A stretch of 64,000 bases of DNA from Muribaculaceae bacterium (GTDB taxonomy: Bacteria > Bacteroidota > Bacteroidia > Bacteroidales > Muribaculaceae): NCBI GenBank assembly GCA_023667285.1, contig JAMPAK010000001.1:380317-444316 (forward strand), read 5' to 3'. The first letter of the stretch is position 1. The number at the start of each line of letters is the position of its first letter. Under the pieces are notes generated by a model. It was not told the origin of the DNA. It did not search any database and saw only the letters and a list, made by a program, of their open reading frames with translations. This document shows positions 42,094-53,290 of the stretch, piece after piece. The position numbers were made by a program, and so were the translations under genes.

Positions 42094-42255
42094 TCAATCG
42101 ATTTTTGAGAATTGGTCCTTGCCTACGCCACAGATGGGACAAACCCAGTCGTCAGGGATATCCTCAAATTTTGTACCGGGCTTTATGCCGCTGTCGGGGT
42201 CGCCTTTGGCGGGGTCATATATCCACCCGCAAACGTCACATACGTACTTATCCAT
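42094..42255 (-). CDS. Rubredoxin
   Basis: 53 residues starting at ATG 42255. The four iron cysteines are Cys6, Cys9, Cys39 and Cys42 ([12 protein letters not shown] and WVCPICGVG), with [20 protein letters not shown] between, the classical rubredoxin layout. It carries single electrons in the cytoplasm of anaerobes, often to rubrerythrin or superoxide reductase, neither of which is in the window. The gene has its own terminator, stands between the zeta pair and metK, and is divergent from metK. Confidence 0.93.
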
Positions 42256-42381
42256 AATTCATGAGGGTTTTAGATAGTTGAATCTTTACACTAACTAACC
42301 ATTTTCTCCTCAAGATGGTTCAGAGGAGAGTGTGAAATGGGAGTTCAACGAGACTCGACGTATGTGGGTTTTTGATGTAGG

Positions 42382-42413
42382 TTTGGTATTTTCGGGTAAA
42401 AGGTGTAACTTTG
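42382..42413 (+). promoter_or_regulatory. Promoter of metK
   Basis: TTTG at 42382-42385, exactly 20 bases, TAACTTTG at 42406-42413. Predicted start near 42417, just before the riboswitch. Confidence 0.75.
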
Positions 42414-42432
42414 CATGGATTTTTCGAACAAT

Positions 42433-42480
42433 AGTGGACAAATTTGGCTGCTTGCAACCACTTCAAAAAATGCTAAAAAT
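42433..42480 (+). promoter_or_regulatory. SAM-II-like riboswitch (H-type pseudoknot) over the metK start
   Basis: P1 is AGTGG (42433-42437) with CCACT (42458-42462). The L1 loop (42438-42457) contains TTTGGC (42443-42448), which pairs with GCTAAA (42472-42477) to form P2, giving an H-type pseudoknot. This matches the SAM-II layout including the conserved GCUAAA and adenine-rich L2. The 3' strand covers the end of ATG 42470-42472 and abuts ATG 42479, so SAM binding would block translation of metK. A search with the SAM-II (SAM_alpha) covariance model would decide. Confidence 0.75.
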
Positions 42481-43801
42481 GAAGACTTACCTTTTCACAT
42501 CGGAGTCAGTCTCCGAGGGCCATCCCGATAAGGTGGCCGACCAGATTTCAGATGCCGTCCTCGATGAGTTTCTTGCGCGCGACCCCAAGAGCAAGGTGGC
42601 TTGCGAGACTCTTGTGACGACAGGACAGGTGATCCTCGCAGGCGAGGTCAAGAGCAACGCCTACATCGATTTGATGGATGTGACACGCGAGGTTATCAAG
42701 AATATAGGTTATGACCGTTCCGAGCTTAAGTTTGACGGCGAGGCTTGCGGTGTCTTCTCAGCCCTTCACGAACAGAGCGCCGACATCAACCGCGGCGTGG
42801 AGCGGGAGGAGGCCGAGAGTCAAGGTGCAGGAGACCAGGGCATGATGTTTGGTTATGCCTGTGACGAGACTCCTGACTATATGCCTTTGACACTCGATCT
42901 CTCTCACAGGCTGCTCATAGAGCTAGCCGCCATCCGCCGTGAGGGAAAAGAAATGACCTATGAGGCCGACGGGAAGAGGCGCACTTATCTGCGCCCTGAC
43001 TCGAAGAGTCAGGTGACTGTGGAGTATGACGAAAATGGACGCCCTCTGAGGGTGGACACCATCGTCATCTCGACTCAGCACGATGAGTTTATCCTCCCCA
43101 CAGACTCTACTCCCGAGGCTCAGGCCAAGGCCGACAGTGAGATGCAGCGCATCATCACTGAAGACATTGAGCTGGTGTTGATTCCGCGTGTCAAGGCCCA
43201 ACTCCCTGAAGATGTGGCCCGGCTGATAGATGGCTACAGACTGTTGGTCAACCCGACGGGCAAGTTTGTCATCGGTGGCCCCCACGGGGACACGGGTCTG
43301 ACGGGTCGCAAGATTATCGTGGACACCTATGGTGGACGTGGAGCCCACGGCGGCGGTGCATTCTCGGGCAAGGACCCATCGAAGGTTGACCGCTCGGCAG
43401 CATATGCCGCCCGTCATATAGCCAAGAATCTTGTGGCTGCAGGTGTGGCGCGCGAGGTGCTTGTGCAGGTGGCCTATGCCATCGGTAAGGCTGAGCCTGT
43501 TAGCCTCTGCATAGATACCCGTGGCTCTTCGAAGGTGCCCTTCACGGATGCTGAGATAGCGGAGAAGGTTCTGGCTATGCCTTGTTTCTCGATGACCCCA
43601 TATGCAATTGAGCAGCGTCTCAAACTCCGCAATCCTATATACAGGGAGACAGCAAGTTATGGACACATGGGTCGTAAGCCCCGTGTGGTGACGAAGCGCT
43701 TCCACTCCAAGTATGAGCCGGAGGTGGTGCGTGAGGTTGAGCTTTTCACATGGGAGAAGCTCGATGCCGTCCCCGATGTCAAGAAGGCATTCGGACTCTG
43801 A
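42479..43801 (+). CDS. metK: S-adenosylmethionine synthetase
   Basis: Makes SAM from methionine and [66 protein letters not shown] and the C-terminal [28 protein letters not shown] are diagnostic; [19 protein letters not shown] follows. ATG 42479 gives 440 residues; ATG 42470 would add three. The start lies under the riboswitch pseudoknot and the gene ends in a strong terminator. Confidence 0.97.
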
Positions 43802-53052: not shown

Positions 53053-53084
53053 TTTGTCGGTCTGAGAGATAATTTATAATTTTG
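53053..53084 (+). promoter_or_regulatory. Promoter of the cobalamin-switch transcript
   Basis: TTTG at 53053-53056, exactly 20 bases, TAATTTTG at 53077-53084. Predicted start near 53088, at the 5' edge of the riboswitch. Confidence 0.75.
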
Positions 53085-53091
53085 CGGCGGA

Positions 53092-53290
53092 TTTCAGTGC
53101 CTAACCGTGAGAGCGGGGAGGCTCAAAAGGGAATCCGGTGAGAATCCGGAACAGTACCCGCTGCTGTAAGTTCCTGCCATCCAGCACATCTCCGTGTCTT
53201 ATTGCCACTGGACGCCTCATGTCCGGGAAGGCGCACGAGAAGATGGGAACAAGTCAGAAGACCTGCTGAGACCCATTGTAAAGACGAGGC
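53092..53290 (+). promoter_or_regulatory. Cobalamin riboswitch
   Basis: The conserved core is easily read: AAAAGGGAATCCGGTG (53125-53140), then GTACCCGCTGCTGTAA (53154-53169), GCCACTG (53204-53210), GGGAAGGCGCACGAGAAG (53225-53242) and GTCAGAAGACCTGC (53253-53266). These are the segments of the B12-box aptamer. The region from 53270 to the ATG at 53443 forms the expression platform and holds a short CCTG/CAGG hairpin followed by TTTTTG (about 53290-53320). High B12 should reduce expression of the TonB receptor and PepSY genes. Confidence 0.93.

Follow-up and report, generated by a model that had tools for sequence, protein, structure and literature searches.

A SAM-II long-loop aptamer adjoining the metK start codon in a Muribaculaceae bacterium, a probable translational OFF switch

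Introduction

How might a riboswitch control translation where ribosomes make no use of Shine-Dalgarno sequences? Textbook translational riboswitches hide such a sequence, but the Bacteroidia, which are abundant in the gut, skip this pairing, and that is what raises the question of translational control by their riboswitches. According to PMC9976891, Bacteroidia ribosomes do not recognize Shine-Dalgarno sequences, the 16S tail being sequestered. The locus considered here is the leader of metK in a Muribaculaceae bacterium. It lies in a stretch of 64,000 nucleotides (the window, from whose first letter all positions are counted) for which a preliminary description, made from the letters alone, had proposed a SAM-II-like pseudoknot reaching the metK start codon. 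As set out below, the unusual part of this locus is the adjacency to the start codon, not the aptamer.

Results

The SAM-II assignment, which the preliminary description had made for 42433 to 42481, is borne out by an independent Rfam model. A covariance-model scan, suggested there as a check, matched RF01726 (SAM-II long loop) end to end at 42428 to 42486 of the forward strand, scoring 59.9 bits (curated cut-off 44) at an E value of 5.4e-9 (computed for 64 kb, both strands, and 4,227 families). An independent match of this strength excludes chance. The sole other match at E values up to 10 within 42300 to 42600 was the older, alphaproteobacterial SAM_alpha model (RF00521), at 19.1 bits under its cut-off of 36, so that the SAM-V and SAM/SAH models have no match there. 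The genome carries one copy of RF01726, and it adjoins a SAM/methionine gene, metK (TIGR01034), which lies downstream; we infer that the aptamer of the metK leader binds SAM.

The aptamer itself is ordinary, because the SAM-II long-loop family is already published, Bacteroidetes included. Weinberg et al. 2010 named RF01726 "SAM-II long loops" and gave Bacteroidetes and marine sources in the table (PMC2864571, in excerpt), and Corbino et al. 2005 had already recorded SAM-II occurrences in the Bacteroides group (PMC1273637, in excerpt). Carriers of RF01726 made up 188 of 198 sampled genomes in the window's family, 197 of 295 in the order, and 45 of 296 in the phylum, and 60 of 80 named metK loci passed the Rfam cut-off. 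We read the window's family as Muribaculaceae because most named Muribaculaceae metK genes on our trees fall among its members, although L003 does not.

Several other riboswitches turned up in the course of the survey. The window also holds a cobalamin riboswitch (53078 to 53284, 109 bits). Four Bacteroidota loci (L045, L072, L050, and L079) have both SAM-I (RF00162) and SAM-II (RF01726) within a few kilobases around metK, and two of the four belong to named isolates, Euzebyella saccharophila and Flavobacterium frigoris; a 2007 survey (PMC2258182) had found none in which the two occur together. In two Bacteroidetes metagenome-assembled genomes (L062 and L071), SAM-I/IV (RF01725) precedes metK instead of SAM-II.

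The five-base stem P1 of the preliminary description, AGTGG/CCACT, is present at 42433 to 42437 and 42458 to 42462 (forward strand), and the covariation among relatives that the description had named as a further check was found for this stem. In an alignment of 80 aptamers chosen from 97 sequences, 98.7% of P1 cells are paired and two of its pairs show compensatory changes; changes on both sides of a pair fall in 12 cells, every one of which belongs to P1, whereas shuffles yield 1.6 over the entire structure. Across 227 distinct sequences, the outermost P1 pair is paired in 72% versus 43% in shuffles; the short-leader loci introduced below, taken alone (27 sequences), give 56% against 50%, with no excess. 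The second stem, described as six pairs between TTTGGC (42443 to 42448) and GCTAAA (42472 to 42477), has its sequences where they were placed, but only UUUG:UAAA (42443 to 42446 with 42474 to 42477) is conserved. A six-pair P2 as a conserved feature was rejected, as pairs five and six are kept in 28/80 and 76/80 aptamers. The four-pair P2 is paired in 99.1% of cells, the two exceptions at its outer pair being, per the alignment, the rows of one genus (g16); it is nearly invariant, which makes covariation uninformative, and the pairing thus rests on the family model. The nested fold of the region, pseudoknot excluded, is not unusually stable (z 0.83).

Upstream of the aptamer, a promoter-like element consisting of TTTG (42382 to 42385), 20 nucleotides, and TAACTTTG (42406 to 42413) ends 20 bases before P1, just as first described. 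This TTTG-N20-TAACTTTG element (42382 to 42413, forward strand), read from the sequence, recurs at the same place in the sister species (L186), and we take it to be the usual Bacteroidota promoter type.

Downstream, metK (methionine adenosyltransferase) runs from 42479 to the end of its open reading frame at 43801 on the forward strand, and its product matches the TIGR01034 equivalog with 479.2 bits (cut-off 309.4). Both ATG codons noted in the preliminary description, at 42470 and 42479, are there, and GCTAAA begins on the last base of the first. The ATG at 42479 to 42481 is the homologous metK start, since the starts of relatives correspond to it, and one base separates it from GCUAAA, which puts the start 2 nt past the last base of the strand. 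The ATG at 42470 to 42472, 9 nt before the homologous start and in frame with metK, is part of the aptamer, because 253 of 259 loci have an ATG directly before CTAA, and most of these start metK far downstream. From P1 to the start there are 16 bases, UCAAAAAAUGCUAAAA, in which no Shine-Dalgarno-like stretch is present, and none is held in the pseudoknot.

In Flavobacterium johnsoniae, A at positions -3, -6, -12, and -13 together with low structure from -20 to +20 favors initiation (PMC6847099, in excerpt). The window's start has A at three of these four positions: the A at -3 comes from the UAAA strand (42474 to 42477), and those at -12 and -13 come from the loop's A-tract ahead of GCUAAA (42465 to 42470, covering -9 to -14), with C at -6.

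To place this arrangement among its relatives, leader length was taken as the spacing, by pattern, from the end of GCUAA to a conserved 11-residue MetK motif. The distribution has two peaks, with 13 of 234 loci at 20 to 36 nt, 221 at 69 nt or more, and none between. Another 30 genomes of the family, taken largely from short-form genera and therefore a biased sample, contributed 20 further short loci and 5 long ones. The combined count is 33 short among 259 classified loci, a figure that includes short loci partly sought on purpose and two repeats, in each of which a named record and a second genome give the same locus (L008 = L279 and L025 = L298, checked among the short loci), all within six genera of one family; no classified locus outside the window's family is short. 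In the remaining 226 of 259, metK starts about 50 nt or more past the aptamer, and blocking of the start codon as a general mode for Bacteroidota metK was accordingly rejected. Two of the named loci counted by pattern (L055 and L069) score under the Rfam cut-off. The 45 loci uncounted for spacing have no aptamer pattern with a metK motif within 400 nt. Some of them do bear RF01726 (L045, L052, L059, L072, L073, L079, L081, and most of L151 to L170), the first seven being not short by their Rfam and metK coordinates. L263 and L088 are long by eye, L172 has a terminator-like hairpin with no metK start within 420 nt, and L176 has no aptamer pattern.

Within the window's genus (g1), short leaders are confined to the window and L186, of 22 loci classified and 24 with a match. 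The other five genera are short throughout their readable loci: 2/2 in g12, 10/10 in g20, 3/3 in g26, 12/12 in g22 (plus L302, short by eye and left out of the count), and 2/2 in g16, where both aptamers score under the Rfam cut-off (40.5 and 38.8 bits). The geometry varies among them. Starts in g12 and g26 have A at the same three of four positions as the window (-3, -12, and -13); those in g22 lie 7 to 8 nt past GCUAA with A at one or two of the four, and those in g20 lie 12 to 19 nt past it with A at one to three. In L316 (g16), the final base of GCUAA is already part of the start codon.

The surroundings upstream differ as well: of the long-leader loci, 194 of 224 have TANNTTTG in the 60 nt preceding P1, compared with 8 of 33 short ones. 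The short aptamers lie 10 to 37 nt past the end of a same-strand open frame in 7/10 g20 and 3/3 g26 loci; in g22 short loci with a visible same-strand frame, that frame ends at least 151 nt away. Separately, two SAM-II matches have a tRNA gene directly upstream (L019, 1655 to 1794, and L024, 1694 to 1863, with 7 and 37 nt between), because of which metK in these loci may be transcribed through from the tRNA.

In 23 short rows, among which two sequences each occur twice, the aptamer-borne AUG lies 6 to 15 nt before the metK start. At these distances of at most 15 nt, the frame that it opens either is in phase with metK or closes at the metK ATGA, and the third phase does not occur; among 220 long loci, every phase is represented (65, 83, and 72). 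The aptamer AUG of the short rows may initiate translation or feed re-initiation. Could AUG 42470 then be the real metK start, with the pseudoknot holding the start codon itself and MetK three residues longer? The shared frame at a distance of 9 nt and the avoidance of the third phase would suit such a start, but the frame bias carries little weight given that the short rows are related to one another, and the AUG belongs to the aptamer in 253/259 loci regardless of where metK starts. We regard this as unlikely, and blocking would in any case operate much the same way from AUG 42470.

The long-leader relatives suggest a different mode of control. Under a strict detector, 17 of 20 long-leader congeners have a terminator-like hairpin with a U-run before metK, and the remaining three have a similar hairpin by eye; in most, the 5' arm starts TGTTGAAGC. 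Across the family's long loci the hairpin is found in 67/125 versus 8 to 16 in shuffles, compared with 1/43 in other families (0 to 2 shuffled) and 9/53 in named loci (0 to 4 shuffled). These are predicted terminators, and in several congeners the 5' arm could, by inspection, pair with the aptamer loop GGCUGCUUGC as an antiterminator. A strict count of exact loop complements of at least 7 nt gave 10/42 in other families versus 1.8 in shuffles, 7/125 in the window's family versus 2.1, and 2/51 in named loci versus 1.0, the shuffles ignoring kinship; 13 of the 67 family loci with a detected terminator hold a loop complement of at least 6 nt inside it. We consider an anti-aptamer strand likely for the other families; in the window's own, such a strand, or an antiterminator pairing, is weakly suggested. 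A swapped-partner energy test (own spacer better in 25/125 family, 18/42 other-family, and 32/51 named loci, p 0.04) was left unused owing to its poor design, with most family loops identical and spacer lengths differing. Outside the family, long leaders often contain CAATCA-like loop complements (as in L113, L117, L120, L123, L129, and L130), which are likely anti-aptamer strands with no terminator detected.

With such hairpins following the same aptamer in congeners, the riboswitch of the window might act on transcription or mRNA stability (through Rho, RNase access, or pausing at the start) and not by blocking the ribosome; SAM-II of Sinorhizobium meliloti alters mRNA stability besides translation (PMC9373788, in excerpt). 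However, no intrinsic-terminator-like site was found in 42150 to 42600, and with a single nucleotide between the pseudoknot strand and the start codon, a hairpin could not fit ahead of metK. The g20 and g26 aptamers that closely follow a same-strand open frame also speak against this reading, as their position suits control of a single gene within an operon. Action on transcription or stability consequently seems improbable here.

The short form has more than one origin. On a full-length metK tree of 103 rows, 30 of them short, parsimony requires six changes, and the window and L186 are sisters nested among long-leader congeners (support 100/98 and 100/99); L175 and L187, which adjoin the pair, are both long and both have a detected terminator. 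A single origin was rejected, since forcing the 30 short rows into a single clade worsens the score by 261 log units (p-AU 9e-58). On a 600-nt metK tree (148 rows, 13 short), parsimony gives four changes and a single clade is not rejected (p 0.586); the tree constrained to one clade even surpassed the quick free tree by 15 log units. We prefer the full-length tree, which was searched more fully and draws on more sites and a larger number of short rows, even though its row total is smaller; it left out L178, L309, and L313 for length, all loci from 1,000-base stretches, and loci of other families. Holding the window's two rows with each short genus in turn gave p values of 0.0117 for g16, 0.0044 for g20, 2.5e-7 for g22, 0.0022 for g12, and 0.0086 for g26, in tests chosen after the tree was known and uncorrected for their number. 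As these are trees of metK only, transfer of metK between species could mimic part of the multiple-origin pattern.

Between the window and L186, the aptamer (42434 to 42477) is identical at 44/44 positions while four-fold sites of metK agree at 116/220, which argues that the aptamer is still selected; the 100 nt upstream agree at 33/100 ungapped, a count that understates their likeness. That the aptamer is a relic, left without a regulatory role when the spacer and its terminator-like hairpin were lost by deletion, is very improbable and was rejected because of this conservation; moreover, five other genera retain the short form in all their readable loci, and it arose more than once.

Discussion

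We consider it probable that the SAM-II riboswitch of the window is an OFF switch for metK at high SAM that acts on translation; its open and closed states and the direction and level of control are inferred. Direct blocking of initiation, which the preliminary description had proposed in place of hiding a Shine-Dalgarno sequence, gains support as the simplest reading, given the lack of any Shine-Dalgarno-like stretch and a start 2 nt past the pseudoknot strand. Transcription would begin just upstream of P1. Without SAM, P1 would form while GCUAAA and the A-tract stay open, and the 30S subunit would load on AUG 42479. With SAM, UUUG would pair with UAAA, placing a closed pseudoknot inside the ribosome landing site, where it would cover -2 to -5 and pin the A-tract, so that initiation would fail. 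The aptamer would double as its own expression platform, in an arrangement probably derived from a leader that was longer and had an intrinsic terminator of the kind predicted to persist in congeners. Because Bacteroidia ribosomes work without Shine-Dalgarno pairing, the switch would hide the start codon's own surroundings, and because the UAAA strand and the A-tract supply the A's, the SAM-closed pseudoknot would cover a landing site that has no Shine-Dalgarno sequence.

We offer more tentatively, as possible rather than probable, a broader proposal: that the aptamer repeatedly became the ribosome-recognition element of metK in Muribaculaceae, with SAM hiding its A's and the start codon. In g1, g12, and g26, the A's at -12, -13, and -3 would stand in for a Shine-Dalgarno sequence, and this state would have been reached several times (at least six changes on the tree), replacing the terminator in the window's genus. 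The idea of the aptamer as an initiation signal holds best in g1, g12, and g26, whereas every short-form genus fits the idea of an occluded landing site. What makes the locus valuable is that one genus provides matched cases, most of its species having a terminator-like hairpin after the aptamer and two having the same aptamer right at the start codon, so that the question of translational control is directly testable. The expression platform appears to have been swapped while the sensor remained nearly unchanged.

Among known systems, the SAM-II long loops (RF01726; PMC2864571, in excerpt) share sequence and structure with the window, which passes the family model; in 226 of the 259 classified loci, however, metK starts about 50 nt or more downstream, not 2 nt from the strand. 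In the open-licence literature, a start-adjacent SAM-II in Bacteroidota is undescribed in the titles and abstract beginnings of the matches listed. Alphaproteobacterial SAM-II elements with predicted terminators (PMC1273637 and PMC2258182, in excerpt) and the congeners of the window alike have the same kind of aptamer but predicted intrinsic-terminator control. The metA element of S. meliloti is likewise a SAM-II with a nearby start codon and translational control (PMC9373788, in excerpt), but it hides the Shine-Dalgarno sequence GAGG with the start 74 nt downstream, whereas the window has no such sequence. A further parallel is the metX SAM-II (PDB 2QWY), which a review assigns to a "direct occlusion" group (PMC10907184, in excerpt). 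Like the window's aptamer as the family model pairs it, this is an H-type pseudoknot whose 3' strand lies in the ribosome landing site, and in the window that strand overlaps the landing site 1 nt before AUG 42479. The metX element hides a Shine-Dalgarno sequence; in the window, what the strand would cover is instead the bases just before the start codon.
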